A DNA stretch of 36,668 nt from Pseudomonadota bacterium (GTDB lineage: Bacteria > Desulfobacterota > Desulfarculia > Desulfarculales > Desulfarculaceae): contig JAHJPG010000032.1 of assembly GCA_018819925.1 (NCBI GenBank), positions 1 to 36,668 of the forward strand, written 5' to 3'. The position numbers and the translations under genes were made by a program. The notes beneath the pieces are model-generated. The model worked only from the letters and a program-made list of their open reading frames with translations. It was not told the DNA's origin and ran no database searches. This document shows positions 2,482 to 17,149 of the stretch, one piece after another (the first letter of the stretch is position 1; each line of letters opens with the position of its first letter).

Positions 2482-3840
2482 ATGGCTTTGCCCAAGAGTG
2501 AAGTCGCCGGGATTATTCTGGCCGCCGGTCTTTCCACCCGCTTTGGCGGGGAGAAGCTGACCACCCCCCTGGCGGGACGCCCCCTGGCCTTTTGGGCCAT
2601 CGAGGCCGCCCTGACATCACGCCTGGGGAGGGTGGTCCTGGTCACCCGGCCGGAATTGGCCGGTGAATTGGCCGCCACCTTCCCCGGCCTGGAGTTGGTG
2701 CTCAACCACCAGGCCCATCAGGGGCAGGCATCGTCCCTGCGCCTGGGGCTGGAAGCCCTGGGTCCCGGCCACAGCCATGCGCTTTTCCTGTTGGCCGACC
2801 AGCCTTTGTTGACCTCGGACTTGATAAACAGCTTCGTGGACAAGGCCGAATCAGGAATCGGCCTGGCCGCTCTGGCCGGCAGCGAGTCCTTCTCTCCCCC
2901 CACCCTGTTCGCCCGCGGCTTTTGGAAAGACCTGGGGCAAGCTCAGGGCGACTCCGGGGGCCGGGAAATCCTGCGAGCCCATGCCGGCGAGGCCGCGTTC
3001 CTGACGCCAAACTTTCCCCTGGCCGGGCTGGACGTGGACACCCCCGAACAGCTTGGACGGGCCGAGGCGGTGCTCTGCCAACGCTTCAGCCGGGCCCTGG
3101 AGTTGGAGCACGGGGATATGGTGAGCCTGGTGGGCGCGGGCGGCAAAACCAGCCTGCTGGAAACCCTGGCCTCGGAGCAGGCGTCCGCTGGCCAGGCGGT
3201 GTTGGCCACCACCACCACCCATATCTTCCGCCCCAGCGGCCAGGTGCTTTTGGAGCCCCACGAACAGTGGCTGCCAGAGCGCATAGCCCGGCGCCTGGCC
3301 CCCGGCTGGTGCCTCACCGTGGCGGCCGGCGCCACCTCCGGCGAGGACCGCCCCAAACTCAAGGGCCTCACTCCCCAAAGCGTGGACTGGCTATGGGAAG
3401 AAGGAGTGGCTCCGCTCATCCTGGTGGAGGCGGATGGGGCGCGCCGCTTGCCTTTGAAAGCTCCGCGAACCCACGAGCCGGTGACCCCTCTGGCCACCAC
3501 CGTGCTGGTGGGCGTCCTGGGACTTTCCGCTATGGGGCAGCCGGTGGATGATGAGCATGTGTTGGCCGTGCCCGAATTCTGCGCCCTCACCGGGGCCGCG
3601 CCGGGGGAAGCCGTGACCCCCGCTCATCTGGCCGCCCTGGCGGCGCATCCCAAGGGCCTGTTCAAAAAGGCCCCGCCCCGGGCCCGCAAGGCGTTGGTGC
3701 TGAACCAGGGCGAGTTGCCCGGCGCTGCCGAGGCGGCTCGGCAGGTCGCCGAAATGGTCAGCGAACAAGAACCCGCCCTGAGGGTGCTGCTCACCAGCTT
3801 GCAGCGGGGTGAGTGCGAAGTTTTGTTGGAGGGAGACTAG
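2482..3840 (+). CDS. MocA-like MPT cytidylyltransferase fused to YqeC (selenium-dependent Mo hydroxylase accessory)
   Basis: This 452-residue protein has two parts. Residues 1-195 are a MobA/MocA-type nucleotidyltransferase with LAAGLSTRFGGEK at 13-25 and LLADQPLL at 103-110; MocA makes molybdopterin cytosine dinucleotide. Residues 205-452 match YqeC, with a P-loop-like GAGGKTSL at 218-225, TTTTHIFRP at 243-251, and EADGARRLPLKAP further on. YqeC is a marker of selenium-dependent molybdenum hydroxylases, where a labile selenium ligates Mo. Seen: the two families in one frame. Inferred: the fusion couples dinucleotide formation to selenium insertion in the Mo hydroxylase encoded nearby at 6219-9816. 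Its stop codon overlaps the convergent UPF0280 stop by 3 bases. An AAGGTG ribosome-binding site precedes the ATG. Function of the YqeC half is not biochemically settled. Confidence 0.9.
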   Translation: MALPKSEVAGIILAAGLSTRFGGEKLTTPLAGRPLAFWAIEAALTSRLGRVVLVTRPELAGELAATFPGLELVLNHQAHQGQASSLRLGLEALGPGHSHALFLLADQPLLTSDLINSFVDKAESGIGLAALAGSESFSPPTLFARGFWKDLGQAQGDSGGREILRAHAGEAAFLTPNFPLAGLDVDTPEQLGRAEAVLCQRFSRALELEHGDMVSLVGAGGKTSLLETLASEQASAGQAVLATTTTHIFRPSGQVLLEPHEQWLPERIARRLAPGWCLTVAAGATSGEDRPKLKGLTPQSVDWLWEEGVAPLILVEADGARRLPLKAPRTHEPVTPLATTVLVGVLGLSAMGQPVDDEHVLAVPEFCALTGAAPGEAVTPAHLAALAAHPKGLFKKAPPRARKALVLNQGELPGAAEAARQVAEMVSEQEPALRVLLTSLQRGECEVLLEGD

Positions 3841-4724
3841 GCGGCCAAGAGTTTTGCCGCGGCAGCCGGTCCGGCCAAGGTGATGCGCTGCCCCTGATCC
3901 AGCAGCAGGGCCTCGCCCTGCACCAACACCAGGCAGCCCACGATGAGTCCCCGGCGGTGCAGGCGGCGGGCCAAGTCCCTGGCCCCGCGCAAGGCGGCCA
4001 GACGCTGAGTGCGCGGCAAAGGCCCCACCTTGGTGGTGACCTTCTGCCCGCCCAACCCACAGTCAGGATCGATGTCTTGCGCCGGGGCGGACTCTGAACC
4101 CGGGTCCTGGGCCTGGGCCGCGTTACCCAGGGCGGTGGCCGCTGCATCGGCCTGGGCCGCGCTGGTGGCCCATACCGTGACCAGATCGGCCACCCCCGAG
4201 CTGTGGCTGCGGCCCCGCCAGCCGCTGCTGGCCACCCCGCCGATGCCGTCGCCGCCGCGCAGGTTCAGGCGGCCCATAAGGGGTGAGGGCTCCCCCTCCG
4301 GCGCGTCGGGCGGCTTCACGCCCACCCGCAAGGATTGGCCCGGCGACAGGCGCACCGCGATGTCCCCGCCGTTGTTCACCACCACCCGGTCCGCGCCCAG
4401 GGCCAGGGCGAACTCGGCCACCTCGTCGGCCACCGCCCCGGCCACCGCCGCCAACGGAGCCAGGCCGCTGTCCACCGTGCGGCAGGCCCGGGCGGCCCGT
4501 TCCACCACCGGCGGCAGGGGACGCCCAGCCGGCAGCTCGCGCACCCGGCGGCGCACGTAGCCCTGAAACTCGGCCAGCACCTTGAGGCAACGCAAAGCCG
4601 CCCGGGCGGCTTGGGCGGCCATCACCGGGCGGGGTTCGCCGCCTTGCCAGGCGGCTATGGTCAAGGTCATGGGGCCCCAGTCCACCAGGACCAGGTCGGG
4701 GCGTATTACTTGGACCGGATCCAA
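3837..4724 (-). CDS. UPF0280 family protein (ApbE-like fold)
   Basis: This protein of up to 295 residues is the last gene of the minus-strand operon. Family features are the segment RTVDSGLAPLAAVAGAVAD, followed by ADRVVVNNGGDIAVRL and a C-terminal SSGVADLVTVWATSAAQADAAATALGNA stretch split here by its loops. UPF0280 proteins belong to the ApbE-like fold group, whose best-known members transfer FMN to proteins. The start is ambiguous: TTG at 4724 keeps the family N-terminus (VIRPDLVLVDWGPM), GTG at 4685 and ATG at 4670 are shorter alternatives, and none has a clear ribosome-binding site. It follows the Hnr-like gene, with a short overlap if the TTG is used. The pairing suggests a maturation role for that flavoprotein, but no function is proven. 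Confidence 0.85.
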   Translation of the reverse strand: MDPVQVIRPDLVLVDWGPMTLTIAAWQGGEPRPVMAAQAARAALRCLKVLAEFQGYVRRRVRELPAGRPLPPVVERAARACRTVDSGLAPLAAVAGAVADEVAEFALALGADRVVVNNGGDIAVRLSPGQSLRVGVKPPDAPEGEPSPLMGRLNLRGGDGIGGVASSGWRGRSHSSGVADLVTVWATSAAQADAAATALGNAAQAQDPGSESAPAQDIDPDCGLGGQKVTTKVGPLPRTQRLAALRGARDLARRLHRRGLIVGCLVLVQGEALLLDQGQRITLAGPAAAAKLLAA

Positions 4725-6218
4725 GGCACCGGTTCCGTGGCCAAGAAAGGCTTCACCGCCTCCATGTGGCCGCCCATTTGTTTGTAGTCGCTCAGGCGCA
4801 TGGTGTATTCGATGGGAGCCACCGTGGCCGGGGTGGGCACCCAGGTGAAGCCGCCGGGCCGCACCTTCTCCACGTCCACGTAGAAGGTGATGCCGCCTCC
4901 GGGCAGGACAAACACCTTGGCCCCGCCGCAGGTGAGCACCGCCTTGGCCGCGTGCACCGCCCGGGTGAGGCGCAGGGGATAGCGCACCGCCCCGGCCCGG
5001 GCCGAGCCCCCTGCCCCGCCCACGTACACCGCCGACACCCGCGACTCCTGGCAGGTTTCGGCCAGGGCGGCCACCGCCAGGCGGGCCTTTTCGGTCAACT
5101 GGGTGAGCTTGAACTTGCCGTCGTCGCCCAATACGAACATGGCCGCGTTCTGGCCGGTGGTCTCGGTGATGAGCAGGGTGGACCCCGGAGGTGTGAGGCC
5201 GGTGTCCACCTTGGCCACGATGTCCAAGGGATTGTCCAGGCCGGTGCCGCCCCAGCCCTTGCCGTGGGTGCCGAAATAGCGCCCCGGGGTGGAGCGCTTG
5301 AAGCACAACTCCACCCCGCCCGGGGTCAGGCCCAGGCAGCGCCCGGCGGCGTGATGGCTGAACAGGCTGGTGATGTGGTGGTCCAACACCACCACCTCGT
5401 CGGCGGCCTCCTTGAAAAACGGCGCGAACAGCCCGGCCGAGGCCGAGCCGCAGCCCACCCGCATTTTTTCCACCAACTCTCCGTCGATGACCGGAGGTTG
5501 CCCCACCTGGATATCCAGCTTGGCCCCGCCCTTCACCTTGAGCCGAACCGCCTCGCGGTTGGCTATGGCCGCCACCGCCCGGGCGGCGGCAAAGCCGTGC
5601 CGGCCGGTGAGGCGGTTGACTCCGCCGATGGCCAGCATCTTGGAGCCGTACTCCTCGGTTTCCACCATGCCCACGGTACGGCCCTCGAAACTCACCGCCG
5701 CGCCTTCGGGGCCCACCTCCAGATCGGTGTCGATCTTCACCTTGAGCCCGGAGTAGGACAGCGGGGCCTCGGTGACCACGGTGACCACCTCCACTCCGTC
5801 CCGCTCGTGGCTAACGATATAGGGGGCGGGCACGTAGTCGGGATAGGTGCCCCCGGCTCCGATGGCGGTGATGCTGGGGCGCTCGATGATGAGCTCCGGT
5901 TCGGGGCCCACCTCCCGGGCCACCTCGGCGTAGGTTAGCAAGGGGCGGGTGCGTATCAGCTCCTGGCCGTGGTTGGAGTAGCGGCCGCAGGCTCCGGTCA
6001 GCCCCTCGGGAACCCGGCAGCCCACCGGGCAGTGACCGCACTCCTGGGCGCCGGGCACTGGGATCACTTCATCGATCACCGCCTCACGGGGGCACACTCT
6101 GAGGCAGGTGCGGCATTCCACGCATCCCTGGTCGATAACCGCCTTTTTGTCGCTCAAAGACACGGCGGCCACCGGGCAGTCCTTAACGCACAGGCCGCAG
6201 CCGTTGCAGCGCTCCAGA

Positions 6219-6229
<11 letters not shown>
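4706..6229 (-). CDS. hnr: 6-hydroxynicotinate reductase-like Fe-S flavoprotein
   Basis: The predicted reaction is ferredoxin-dependent reduction of 6-hydroxynicotinate to 1,4,5,6-tetrahydro-6-oxonicotinate. The 507-residue protein opens with two ferredoxin motifs, C8-C11-C14-C18 and C36-C39-C42-C46, then a third cysteine group, C64-C67-C71-C81. This matches the two [4Fe-4S] and one [2Fe-2S] clusters reported for the Eubacterium barkeri enzyme, which also has covalently bound flavin. The remaining 400 residues are glycine-rich and match that family only. The start is GTG at 6229, overlapping the end of the Mo-subunit gene by 11 bases, so translation is probably coupled. Position between a nicotinate dehydrogenase-like enzyme and UPF0280, with an enamidase divergent, strongly supports the call. 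A related substrate such as another hydroxypyridine is the main alternative. Confidence 0.85.
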
Positions 6230-8476
<2,247 letters not shown>

Positions 8477-8480
<4 letters not shown>

Positions 8481-9333
8481 GACCGCGCCTCCAGTTGGGC
8501 CCAGGCGCGGCTCAAGGCTCGGGCGGTGATTCGGGCGATGGCCGGGACCTTGTAGGTGGCCGAAGCACGCCAACCGCATACGTCGGTGAAGTGGCCGGCC
8601 GCCTTCTCGCCCGCCGCCCGCCACAACTCCGGGCCGGGCGTCGCGCCCTGAATTAGCTCTTCCACGTCGCGTAGGCGGCGTGGGGTGGGAAAGCAGGACC
8701 CCAGCACCACCCGGGGGTCGGACAGCTCCCGGTCCAGGCACGCGGCCAGATTCAGCCGGGACACGGCCACCTCTTGGCGGCGTCCCACCTTGAGGAAGGC
8801 CTGGCCCCTGGTCTCGGCCGGCGGGTCCAGGGCATAGCCCAGGATCAGCTCGCCTTGGGCCAGGGTGGTTTTGTTGGGAGCGGTGATGAGTTCGCCGAGA
8901 GGGCAATGGCGCATCCCTCCCAGGGAGGCGATCTCGGCCACCGCGTCCAGGGCCACCAGGGCGCTGAGGCCGTCGGCCGCTGGCGAGGCGTTGGCCACGT
9001 TGCCGCCGATGGTGGCGGTTTGGCGCACCTGCATGGAACCCACTGTGGCCGCGGCCTGGGCCAACACCGGGATGCGCCGGGCCACCCGGGGGTCTTCTTC
9101 CAAGCAGCGGAAGGTGAGCCCGGCCCCGAGATAATAAGCGGGGCCGTCCAATTCCAGGCGCCCCAGTTCGGGCAGGCGGGTTACGTCCAAAATCAGTTCG
9201 GGAAGCTCTGTGCCGCTCAGGCGGGCCTGGCGCAAGGCCAGCATCAGGTCCGTGCCGCCGGCCAGCACCTTGGCTCCTGGGTGGGACAGGGCATTGAGGG
9301 CTTCATCGAGGGTGGCGGGGGTCAGGAAGCGGC

Positions 9334-9337
<4 letters not shown>
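8477..9337 (-). CDS. FAD-binding subunit of molybdenum hydroxylase (NdhF/CoxM type)
   Basis: This 286-residue protein is the flavin subunit that passes electrons from the 2Fe-2S subunit to the acceptor. Both FAD pyrophosphate-binding signatures of the CO dehydrogenase/xanthine dehydrogenase family are present: AGGTDLM at 26-32 and TIGGNVANASPAAD at 109-122. Length is normal for a separate FAD subunit, and a CO_deh_flav_C type C-terminus follows (KVGRRQEVAVSRLN). Its start overlaps the stop of the 2Fe-2S gene by four bases (ATGA at 9337-9334), and its stop overlaps the start of the Mo subunit the same way. The three subunits are therefore translationally coupled in the order S-F-LM. No 4Fe-4S insertion typical of 4-hydroxybenzoyl-CoA reductase is seen. 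Confidence 0.93.
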
Positions 9338-9816
<479 letters not shown>

Positions 9817-13853: not shown

Positions 13854-15011
13854 ATGAGCTCGATATTGGTAAAAAACGTGGGGCTTATGCTTAGCGGCGA
13901 AGTTGAAAACCCCATTCTGGAAGCGGACAGCCTGGTCATAGCCGACGGCCTGATACAAGAGGTCGGCTCCGGCCTCGGCGCTCCCCAAGGCGCCACGGTG
14001 ATCGACGCCCAGGGCGCGGCGGTCACTCCCGGCCTCATCGACTCCCACTGCCACGTGGTCCTGGGCGACTGGACCCCCCGGCAACAAATGATGAATTTTC
14101 TGGACTCCTCCCTGCACGGCGGAGTGACCACCTCCATCAGCGCCGGAGAGGTGCACCTGCCCGGCCGCCCCAAGGATGCCCTGGGCGCCAAATGCCTGGC
14201 CATCGTGGCCGCCAAGAGTTGGGCCGTGGTGCGCCCCGGCGGAATGAAGGTCTTGGGCGGAGCCCTTATCTTGGAAAAGGGCCTCACCGAGGCTGACATC
14301 GAAGAGTGCGCCCAGGCCGGAGTCAAGGTGATCGGCGAAGTGGGGCTGGGCTCGGTGAAGGAGCCGGCCGAGGCGGCGGAGATGGTGGCCTGGGCCAAGG
14401 CCCGGGGCATGACCGTGATGATGCACACCGGCGGCACCTCCATACCCGGGTCATCGGTGGTGGGGGCCGAGCAGATCATCGCCACGGGGCCCTCGGTGGC
14501 CAGCCATATCAACGGCGGCCCCACCGCGGTCAGCCTGGACGAGGCCAAGCGCATCATCGACCAGACCGACATCGCCATCGAGATCGTCCAGTGCGGCAAC
14601 ATGCGGCGCGCCGCCGAGGTGGCCCGCTACATGGATGAAACCAAGCAGTGGGACCGGGTGATCTTCGGCAACGACGCACCCAGCGGCACCGGAGTGGTCA
14701 CCCTGGGCATCCTGCGCAACATGGCCCTGGTGGCCAGCCTGGGCGGGGTGGCCCCGGAGCTTACCGTGGCCATGGCCAGCGGCAACACCGCCAAGCTCTA
14801 CGGCCTCAACCGGGGCCGCATCGCCGCCGGCCTGGAAGCGGACCTGGTGTTCATGGACACCCCCATCGGCTCTCCGGGCAACGACGTGTTGGGAGCCCTG
14901 GCCGAAGGCGACACTCCGGGCATCAGCATGATCCTGATCGACGGCAAGGTGGTGGTCAAGGTAAGCCGCAACACCCCGCCGGCGATGCGCAAGGCCCAGG
15001 TGGTCTCTTAA
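13854..15011 (+). CDS. ena: Enamidase (amidohydrolase family)
   Basis: Predicted reaction: hydrolysis of 1,4,5,6-tetrahydro-6-oxonicotinate to 2-formylglutarate and ammonia, by a cytosolic binuclear metal enzyme. The 385-residue length equals my recollection of the E. barkeri enamidase, and the resemblance runs end to end. Shared stretches include LHGGVTT, GRPKDA, ALILEKGLTE, MHTGGTSIPGSS, SHINGGPTA, VIFGNDAPSGTG, LGILRNM and SRNTPPA. The expected metal ligands are present in order: H65 and H67 (HxH), E162, H191, H218 and D274. The E. barkeri enzyme is described as an Fe-Zn member of the amidohydrolase family. A GGAG ribosome-binding site precedes the ATG. It follows the regulator closely and the AA_synth gene comes 30 bases later. 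This is the best diagnostic gene of the cluster. Confidence 0.92.
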   Translation: MSSILVKNVGLMLSGEVENPILEADSLVIADGLIQEVGSGLGAPQGATVIDAQGAAVTPGLIDSHCHVVLGDWTPRQQMMNFLDSSLHGGVTTSISAGEVHLPGRPKDALGAKCLAIVAAKSWAVVRPGGMKVLGGALILEKGLTEADIEECAQAGVKVIGEVGLGSVKEPAEAAEMVAWAKARGMTVMMHTGGTSIPGSSVVGAEQIIATGPSVASHINGGPTAVSLDEAKRIIDQTDIAIEIVQCGNMRRAAEVARYMDETKQWDRVIFGNDAPSGTGVVTLGILRNMALVASLGGVAPELTVAMASGNTAKLYGLNRGRIAAGLEADLVFMDTPIGSPGNDVLGALAEGDTPGISMILIDGKVVVKVSRNTPPAMRKAQVVS

Positions 15012-15041
15012 TTCATTGTCCATTCGCGAGGAGATTTGAGC

Positions 15042-15620
15042 ATGCAAATCCGCAAGCTGGTAACCATAGTGGAGGAAACCTTGCAGGAGGCGGGCAAGCA
15101 AGTCAAGCCGGCCACCCGCAAAGCCGCTGCCATCGCGGTGATCAAAAACCCCTTTGCCCATGAATACGCCGAGGACCTCAGCCAACTGATGGAAATTGGC
15201 GAAGAGTTGGGCGGCATGTTGGGCAACAAGGCCCGCGAGGCCCTGGGCATCGCCCCCGAGCAGTGCGAGAGCTACGGCAAGGCGGCCATCGTGGGTCTTA
15301 AGGGCGAGTTGGAGCACGGCGGGGCCATCCTGCACCCCAAGCTGGGCGCCCCATTCCGCAAGGCCTTGGGCCGTGGCCTGGCCTTGATCCCCTCGGTTAA
15401 AAAACGCGGCCCGGCCGGTTGCACCATCGACGTGCCCCTGAACCACAAGGACGCGGCATTTATCCGCTCCCACTTTGACGGCATGACCGTGAGCGTTGAA
15501 GACGCGCCCATGCCCGACGAGATACTGGTGGCCCTGGTGGTCACCGACTCGGGCCGCCCCCTGCCCCGCATCGGCGGCCTTACCAAAGAAGACGCAAAGT
15601 ACGAGGACGGCCTTCGCTAG
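15042..15620 (+). CDS. AA_synth family (DUF1185, pfam06684) protein
   Basis: This 192-residue protein matches the family labelled amino acid synthesis (DUF1185), whose members have structures but no firm activity. Recognisable stretches are IRKLVTIVEETLQEAGK at the N-terminus, NPFAHEYAEDL, the AIVGLKGELEHGGAILHP segment, and the GRPLPRIGGLTKED C-terminus. The ATG at 15042, eight bases after GAGGAG, is preferred over a TTG six bases upstream. It lies between enamidase and aldehyde dehydrogenase, so it probably acts on, or protects, an early ring-opened or reduced intermediate. It could for example hydrolyse or isomerise a lactam. That role is speculation. Soluble, with no signal peptide or membrane segment. 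Confidence 0.85.
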   Translation: MQIRKLVTIVEETLQEAGKQVKPATRKAAAIAVIKNPFAHEYAEDLSQLMEIGEELGGMLGNKAREALGIAPEQCESYGKAAIVGLKGELEHGGAILHPKLGAPFRKALGRGLALIPSVKKRGPAGCTIDVPLNHKDAAFIRSHFDGMTVSVEDAPMPDEILVALVVTDSGRPLPRIGGLTKEDAKYEDGLR

Positions 15621-15658: not shown

Positions 15659-17149
15659 ATGGCCATACTACCCGAAGTCAAGAGCCATTACGGCCGCCTG
15701 AAGCTTCTCATCGGCGGCGAGTGGGTGGAATCGAAGTCCGACATCATAAACAAAACCACCAACCCGGCCACGGGGGTGGAGATAGCCGAGTTCCCCACCG
15801 CCACCAAACAAGAGGCACGGGCGGCGGTGGAGGCGGCCCAGCAGGGCTTCGAGGCCATGAAGGGCATCGCCCTGCGCGAGCGGGCCCGCATGCTCTTTGA
15901 CATGCGCCAGATATTCGACCGCGAAGCCGACACCCTCAGCCGGGTGCTTACCCAGGACCACGGCCGCACCTTCAAAGAGGCCGCGGGCTCGGTGCGCCGC
16001 TCCATCGAGAACATCGAGTCCGCCTGCTCCGCCGCCTACGGCATGGCCGCGCGCAACGAGCACATCGACAACCTGGCGGGCGGCATCGACATGTGGCTGA
16101 CCTGGGAGCCGTTGGGGCCCTTCCTCATCGTCACCCCGGGCAACATTCCCATGCACGCCTGGAGCTCCTTTGTGCCCTACGCCCTGGCGGCAGGCTGCTC
16201 GGTGGTGGTGAGCCCCTCGCGCCAGGACCCGGTGGCCGCCGAGTACATGAGCAAGGTGGCCCTGGAGGCCGGCTTCCCGGCGGGCGCCATCAACCTGATC
16301 CACGGCGGCCGGGATGTGAACAGCTACATCCTGGAGCAAAAGGAGATCGAGGGCATCGGCTTCATCGGCTCCACCGGAGCGGGCCTGGATCTTTTCGCCC
16401 AGTGCGGCAAACTGGGCAAGACCAGCAGCCTCAACGGCAACGGCAAGAACACCGTGGTGATCATGCCCGACGCGGACATTGACTCCTGCCCGGCCTACGT
16501 GCGCCAAGGCTGCTTCGGGATGACCGGACAGCGCTGCCTGGGCTCTGACAACGTGGTGATCATGGGCGACAAGGCCCGTTACGAAGAAGTCAAGCAGGCC
16601 CTGGTGGCCAACGCGGCCTCCATGAAACTGGGCTACGGCCTGGACGAGTCGGTCACCATGGGCCCCTATGCCACCCCGGCGGGCCGCGACAAGGTTTGGG
16701 CCTGGGTGGAGCGCGGCCTGGCCGAGGGCGCCAAGATGGTGCTGGACGGCCGCACCATGCTTCCGGCGGACTACCCCGACGGCTACTTCATGGGCCCCAC
16801 CATCCTGGAAGACGCCGACATAGACATGGATATTTGCAAGGAGGAGGCCTTTGGCGCGGTGGCGGCCCTTATCCGGGCGGACAGCCTGGAGCAGGTCATC
16901 GGCTGGATCAATTCCAAGACCGACCTGGGGCACAGCGCCTGCATCATGACCGCCAGCGGAGCCAACGCCCGCAAGTTCGCCCGCGAAGTCAACGTGGGCA
17001 ACGTGGGCATCAACGTTGGCGTGCCCCAGCCCTACGCCTTCTTCCCCTTGGGCTCCAAGCGCAAGAGCTTCCTGGGCGCGGCCAAGTCCCGCATGGCTTC
17101 CATGCGCCTGTTCCTGGACGAAAGGACCGTCACCGCCCGCTGGGTGTAG
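15659..17149 (+). CDS. Aldehyde dehydrogenase, methylmalonate-semialdehyde dehydrogenase-like
   Basis: This 496-residue NAD-dependent aldehyde dehydrogenase has the catalytic Cys at C293 (GMTGQRCLGSD). It has the cofactor-site stretches IVTPGNIPMHAW near 157-168 and GFIGSTGAG near 234-242. The usual general-base Glu of the ELGGK motif is missing; the equivalent segment reads SLNGNGKNTVVIMPDAD, with Asn at 259. Loss of that Glu and the PDAD segment resemble methylmalonate-semialdehyde dehydrogenases, which are CoA-acylating and decarboxylating. Its likely substrate here is 2-formylglutarate from the enamidase, or glutarate semialdehyde formed by decarboxylation. The product would be glutaryl-CoA or glutarate. 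An AGGAGGGG ribosome-binding site precedes the ATG. It is the last gene before a strong terminator. The family is certain; CoA dependence is inferred. Confidence 0.9.
   Translation: MAILPEVKSHYGRLKLLIGGEWVESKSDIINKTTNPATGVEIAEFPTATKQEARAAVEAAQQGFEAMKGIALRERARMLFDMRQIFDREADTLSRVLTQDHGRTFKEAAGSVRRSIENIESACSAAYGMAARNEHIDNLAGGIDMWLTWEPLGPFLIVTPGNIPMHAWSSFVPYALAAGCSVVVSPSRQDPVAAEYMSKVALEAGFPAGAINLIHGGRDVNSYILEQKEIEGIGFIGSTGAGLDLFAQCGKLGKTSSLNGNGKNTVVIMPDADIDSCPAYVRQGCFGMTGQRCLGSDNVVIMGDKARYEEVKQALVANAASMKLGYGLDESVTMGPYATPAGRDKVWAWVERGLAEGAKMVLDGRTMLPADYPDGYFMGPTILEDADIDMDICKEEAFGAVAALIRADSLEQVIGWINSKTDLGHSACIMTASGANARKFAREVNVGNVGINVGVPQPYAFFPLGSKRKSFLGAAKSRMASMRLFLDERTVTARWV

Follow-up and report, generated by a model that had tools for sequence, protein, structure and literature searches.

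How 6-hydroxynicotinate reductase (HnR) acquires the covalently bound flavin that the Eubacterium barkeri enzyme reportedly carries, and what the proteins of the UPF0280/COG2122 family do, are two questions that prove to be tied together by a near-absolute genomic linkage in anaerobes and aerobes. The locus that raises them lies on a 36,668-nucleotide contig of a Desulfarculaceae bacterium (GenBank assembly GCA_018819925.1, contig JAHJPG010000032.1), here called the window, in which an HnR-like gene, hnr (complement 4706..6229, minus strand; GTG start, 507 aa), is followed on the same strand by a UPF0280/COG2122 gene (complement 3837..4724; TTG start, ~295 aa) that encodes an HnR-type protein with the ApbE fold. 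Our analyses show that this UPF0280, which has the complete ApbE fold and has kept the metal center intact, is a dedicated, nearly obligate partner of HnR. We predict, with about even confidence, that it matures HnR in the cytosol as a divergent member of the ApbE fold, most likely by serving as its flavin transferase.

HnR and UPF0280 as genomic partners

The window gene has the makeup of a 6-hydroxynicotinate reductase gene, as its product harbors a ferredoxin domain, an extra cysteine motif, and the catalytic domain, and its cluster contains molybdenum hydroxylase and enamidase genes. Pfam recognizes two 4Fe-4S ferredoxin motifs that supply eight cysteines, and four more invariant cysteines (C64, C67, C71, and C81) bring the total of cluster ligands to 12; C260 is also invariant. 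This set fits the two 4Fe-4S clusters and one 2Fe-2S cluster that the E. barkeri enzyme is said to contain, and the window HnR may, like that enzyme, carry a covalent flavin. Our profile of the HnR catalytic domain scores E. barkeri-type HnR at 593 bits. This domain of ~390 residues (4706-5923, minus strand) belongs to no Pfam family, and a Foldseek search of the PDB with the whole protein gave no match with E < 0.001, the ferredoxin part alone aligning; the catalytic domain, which was not searched alone, possibly represents a new fold.

On the minus strand of the window the gene order is a molybdenum hydroxylase set (9816 to 6219), then hnr, then the UPF0280 gene. The UPF0280 reading frame has no ATG at the conserved start, but the ATG of its relatives (MEPVQV) aligns with a TTG at 4724-4722, and thus the last 19 nt of hnr also belong to the UPF0280 gene. 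Neither protein shows a visible export signal in its sequence.

The earlier note on this DNA had recorded that UPF0280 directly follows the reductase gene. This is true of the window, and the genomic link is far stronger than that note conveyed. Among 395 Desulfobacterota genomes, searched with the HnR catalytic-domain profile and a profile of the neighboring UPF0280 proteins, HnR was present in 59, HnR-type UPF0280 in 60, and both in 58 (Fisher p ∼5e-66, a nominal value since the genomes are related). The one genome with HnR only has a contig that stops there, and two genomes harbor HnR-type UPF0280 only. UPF0280 lies directly downstream on the same strand, 14 to 467 bp away, in 57 of 64 HnR copies or fragments, and it is adjacent in 42 of the 52 fetched loci that extend 1.5 kb or more downstream, a few of which were fetched twice. 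This near-complete co-occurrence, the small number of extra UPF0280 genomes, and the adjacency exclude chance. The exceptions to adjacency are mostly contig ends, fragments, or second copies, while in the genomes of loci L012, L019, L020, and L024 the UPF0280 gene is not beside hnr but elsewhere in the genome. The orphan HnR-type genes of the two genomes without hnr (G184 and G331; loci L141 and L142) sit beside TRAP transporter genes. Another client for these orphans was considered and rejected, given the TRAP neighbors and a degraded NGGD motif (NGED in G184, locus L141), and they are probably relics.

Across five bacterial lineages, one of them represented by a relative of E. barkeri, the partnership is almost obligate. 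The pair is found in Peptococcaceae/Desulfotomaculia and related anaerobes, and a Clostridia contig (L223) carries an E. barkeri-type nicotinate-fermentation cluster in the order hnr, UPF0280, hgd, ndhF, ndhS, ndhL/M, ena, PF06684, mgm, mii, with Hgd, enamidase, and methylitaconate isomerase near-identical to the crystallized E. barkeri enzymes 3CKY, 2VUN, and 3G7K. In aerobic Alpha- and Betaproteobacteria hnr is carried by 26 plasmids, and profile hidden Markov models (HMMs) detected UPF0280 directly after it in all 14 plasmid loci fetched, with one or two PF06684 proteins next in most annotated records. A tblastn search of the plasmids with the window UPF0280 gave no match, which, as the profile HMMs detect the gene, reflects sequence divergence and not absence. 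The relatives' genes carry the NCBI annotation "UPF0280 family protein."

Two observations concern the surroundings of the proteobacterial pairs. In L227, L228, L229, L238, and L240 they are located among hydantoinase/acetophenone-carboxylase-like genes, and because of these neighbors the HnR proteins encoded there may act on other N-heterocycles. In the aerobes represented by L228, L230, L232, L239, and L240, a ferredoxin-NADP reductase gene is found beside or near hnr and is a likely electron source for HnR.

Our sequence analyses also reveal that the UPF0280 profile splits the family in Desulfobacterota genomes into two classes, one scoring at least 184 bits (60 genomes) and the other at most 116 bits. 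The second class accompanies HcyBio, with UPF0280 present in 41 of 41 HcyBio genomes of a 59-genome sample, and homocysteine synthesis in Desulfovibrio depends on COG2122 along with DUF39 and NIL/ferredoxin proteins (PMC5764234). The homocysteine (Hcy)-type proteins form a clade with a support of 1.0 (the ApbE root being unresolved) and align with the HnR-type proteins with an hhalign E of 3.2e-26. Their motif is SSGxxGHS, the HS being present in 10 of 14 sequences, whereas 60 of 63 HnR-type proteins contain [ST]SGxxGRS. The window genome encodes exactly two UPF0280 proteins, that of HnR type and, on a different contig, a generic one, as well as one HcyBio elsewhere and one true ApbE. Since the second class accompanies HcyBio, the window protein is a paralogue dedicated to HnR, and the pairing of two sequence classes with two clients makes UPF0280 look like a family of client-specific partners, with the window protein in the HnR class. 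Homology between HnR and HcyBio/DUF39 would, had it held, explain how one partner family serves two clients, but we do not claim it; the best hhalign segment (DVVTxxTxxPxxxSG) was matched or beaten by 25 of 200 column-shuffled controls.

Fold and active site of UPF0280

UPF0280 had been assigned earlier to the ApbE-like fold group, and structure prediction bears this out over the whole fold. The AlphaFold2 model (predicted local distance difference test, pLDDT, 91; predicted template modeling score, pTM, 0.91) superposes along its full length on PDB 2O34/DVU1097 (Z 20.6), which phmmer also finds with the window sequence (2.9e-13). It matches the Treponema pallidum flavin mononucleotide (FMN) transferase 4xdt over 223 residues at 3.2 Å (VIA Z 17.7) and the complex of FmnB with flavin adenine dinucleotide (FAD) with a Z of 16.3 (Foldseek E 3.6e-06 to FmnB), and in these superpositions unrelated folds begin at Z 7.3. 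As modeled, UPF0280 has the complete ApbE fold. In profile comparisons the window protein scores 194 bits against NCBIfam PRK04334.1-2 (equivalog cut-off of 290 not reached) and 26.9 bits against Pfam ApbE (PF02424; cut-off 25.6), compared with 17 for proteobacterial relatives and 27.8 for the E. barkeri-type relative. A literature search for UPF0280 yielded no paper.

The HnR-type and ApbE profiles align with E = 3.6e-12, bringing the S, D, T, and NGGD positions into register. In UPF0280, numbered here from codon 4718, S165 falls on the serine of the ApbE TSG motif, within S-G-x-x-G-R (S165 to R170; 4209..4226, minus strand), where the catalytic serine is kept and an arginine occupies the position of the Hcy-type histidine. 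D191 and T195, in D191-AAA-T195 (4134..4148, minus strand), are invariant and correspond to the Asp and Thr Mg2+ ligands of the ApbE ADAxxT motif, and N116-D119 (NGGD; 4362..4373, minus strand) is the equivalent of ApbE NAGGD. S165, D191, T195, and NGGD are all at least 97% conserved among 63 diverse HnR-type members. The FmnB counterparts are Ser257, Asp301, and Thr305; in FmnB the base is His273 and Lys190 and Asp184 contact the ligand.

Proposed flavin attachment to HnR and the alternatives

UPF0280 has an ApbE-like shape and is produced, across very different bacteria, almost only alongside HnR, which makes it the foremost candidate for attaching the HnR flavin, despite its altered active site. 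In such a mechanism UPF0280 would bind Mg2+ together with FAD or a different flavin nucleotide, and would move FMN (or flavin) onto newly made HnR to give a covalent flavin as reported for the E. barkeri enzyme. Electrons of the Fe-S clusters would then reach the pyridone ring by way of this flavin. Canonical ApbE, counted as matches of at least 200 bits, is present in 33 of 63 HnR genomes and in none of the other 30, of which 16 are at least 95% complete, and is therefore not required.

Several observations weigh against a flavin transferase. The loop that carries the ApbE catalytic histidine (Vc H257, Lm H273) is deleted in 61 of 63 HnR-type UPF0280 proteins, which read GRS there, with Arg170 in its place, the lysine of the ApbE AKG motif is replaced by Ala93, and FmnB Asp184, which contacts the adenine-side ribose, corresponds to Thr or Ala (T87; Ala in the window). 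Thus the metal/pyrophosphate center is kept, while the base is not that of ApbE and the contacts on the flavin side have changed. The ApbE target motif D-x-x-[ST]-G-A-[ST] is found in 0 of 78 HnR catalytic domains, in agreement with the earlier note, which had seen no SGAT-like motif in the reductase. Price et al. remarked that the homology of COG2122 seemingly stops short of the flavin-binding region (PMC5764234), a remark that fits the sequence but not the fold. In addition, MA1715, a UPF0280 relative, has been described as a sulfur-trafficking protein (PMC12068725), and 8-alpha covalent flavins form by themselves, so that a transferase may be unneeded (PMC12052999). The proposal in the earlier note that UPF0280 is a flavin transferase is thus upheld in part, by the fold, the S165/D191/T195/NGGD core, the dedicated partnership, and the HnR genomes that have no canonical ApbE, and is weakened by the missing His loop, lysine, and target motif and by close relatives that serve a homocysteine client.

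With the ApbE histidine and target motif absent, such a transfer would have to rely on a base and an acceptor residue other than those that ApbE uses. Judged by conservation, candidate phosphoester acceptors in HnR, at Ser/Thr-only or invariant positions, could include S262/S264, S313/T314, T329, T357/T358, and S409. One speculative region for cofactor attachment is the segment G259-C-G-S-A-S264 (5438..5456, minus strand), in which C260 and S262 are invariant and column 264 is Ser/Thr-only among 62 sequences. HnR also contains invariant Tyr, His, and Cys residues (Y129, Y159, Y194, Y318, H285, H293, and C260), which would suit a self-formed 8-alpha flavin link instead.

Such self-attachment, or nonenzymatic loading, is part of an alternative in which UPF0280 is a noncatalytic maturation chaperone or a structural subunit of HnR. 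The strict partnership and overlapping genes suit a complex partner, autocatalytic flavinylation is common, and UPF0280 has lost the catalytic His and Lys; however, the strong conservation of S165, D191, T195, and NGGD across the 63 members is expected of a working nucleotide/metal site and not of a scaffold, and in several genomes the gene lies away from hnr. We consider this role possible, though somewhat unlikely. That UPF0280 is instead a sulfur-trafficking or persulfidation factor for the Fe-S clusters or a cysteine of HnR, a type of role that has been suggested for COG2122 in homocysteine synthesis by methanogens, would accord with the requirement in Desulfovibrio, with the description of MA1715, and with the 12 cluster cysteines and C260 of HnR. 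Yet the HnR-type proteins contain no conserved cysteine (the best column reaches 22%, and 5 of 63 sequences are Cys-free), which makes sulfur trafficking unlikely, they are found in aerobes, and the same genome contains the Hcy-type protein beside them as a class of its own, so that we regard this role as very improbable. We give as little credence to a role of UPF0280 in nicotinate catabolism itself, as an enzyme that acts on a small molecule rather than on HnR. It does sit in a catabolic operon, often followed by an uncharacterized PF06684 protein, but the E. barkeri pathway, as reportedly set out in a 2006 paper, is complete and includes no enzyme of this kind, and in some relatives UPF0280 follows hnr where further pathway genes have been rearranged or hydantoinases stand in their place.

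If UPF0280 does transfer flavin to HnR, it would be a flavin transferase of the ApbE fold that works in the cytosol and combines a new active site with a new acceptor, and the DUF39 homocysteine enzyme would then be worth examining for flavin. A broader proposal, which we hold tentatively and think unlikely, is that UPF0280/COG2122 is a whole cytosolic flavin-transferase branch with client-specific classes, one of which would modify HnR at a noncanonical site in a His-independent manner and the other would flavinylate HcyBio (DUF39). The long-puzzling reductive sulfur transfer of HcyBio would then be a flavin-dependent reaction.

Neighboring genes and comparison with known systems

The molybdenum hydroxylase genes upstream of hnr in the same operon (6219..9816, minus strand) encode Mo, FAD, and 2Fe-2S subunits of a presumed nicotinate dehydrogenase. 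A gene for a MocA/PucB-like cytidylyltransferase fused to YqeC (selenium cofactor; 2482-3840, plus strand) converges on the UPF0280 gene, which suggests that the hydroxylase is selenium-dependent. On the plus strand, an enamidase-like amidohydrolase (13854..15011), a homologue of E. barkeri enamidase 2VUN via L223, would provide the next pathway step. A PF06684 "amino acid synthesis" protein (15036-15620, plus strand) turns up again in most hnr clusters, in many of them immediately behind UPF0280 and at times in two copies, and could be either a further maturation factor or an enzyme of the pathway. The aldehyde dehydrogenase at 15659-17149 (plus strand) is nearest to CoA-acylating methylmalonate-semialdehyde dehydrogenase (TIGR01722; 339 bits, cut-off of 449 not reached). 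Because 2-formylglutarate is chemically analogous to methylmalonate semialdehyde, this enzyme may convert it to glutaryl-CoA and CO2; a glutarate route has been reported for Azorhizobium caulinodans.

Among known systems, UPF0280 resembles the FAD:protein FMN transferases ApbE/FmnB/Ftp (PF02424), with which it shares the whole fold (Z 16-18), the active-site Ser, Asp, and Thr, and the GGD motif. However, UPF0280 is cytosolic and shorter, lacks the His loop and the AKG lysine, and has as its client one cytosolic Fe-S flavoenzyme without a known target motif. The UPF0280/COG2122 proteins of the homocysteine pathway (DVU1097/2O34 and MA1715) belong to the same family, have the same fold, and are also partners of a ferredoxin-linked enzyme, but they form a separate class with GHS in place of the GRS of the window class and with HcyBio/DUF39 as client. 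The E. barkeri HnR system follows the same neighborhood logic, as seen in L223, which combines near-identical pathway enzymes with the hnr-UPF0280 pair; in contrast, the Desulfarculaceae-type window lacks the methyleneglutarate branch, and its product route is probably different.

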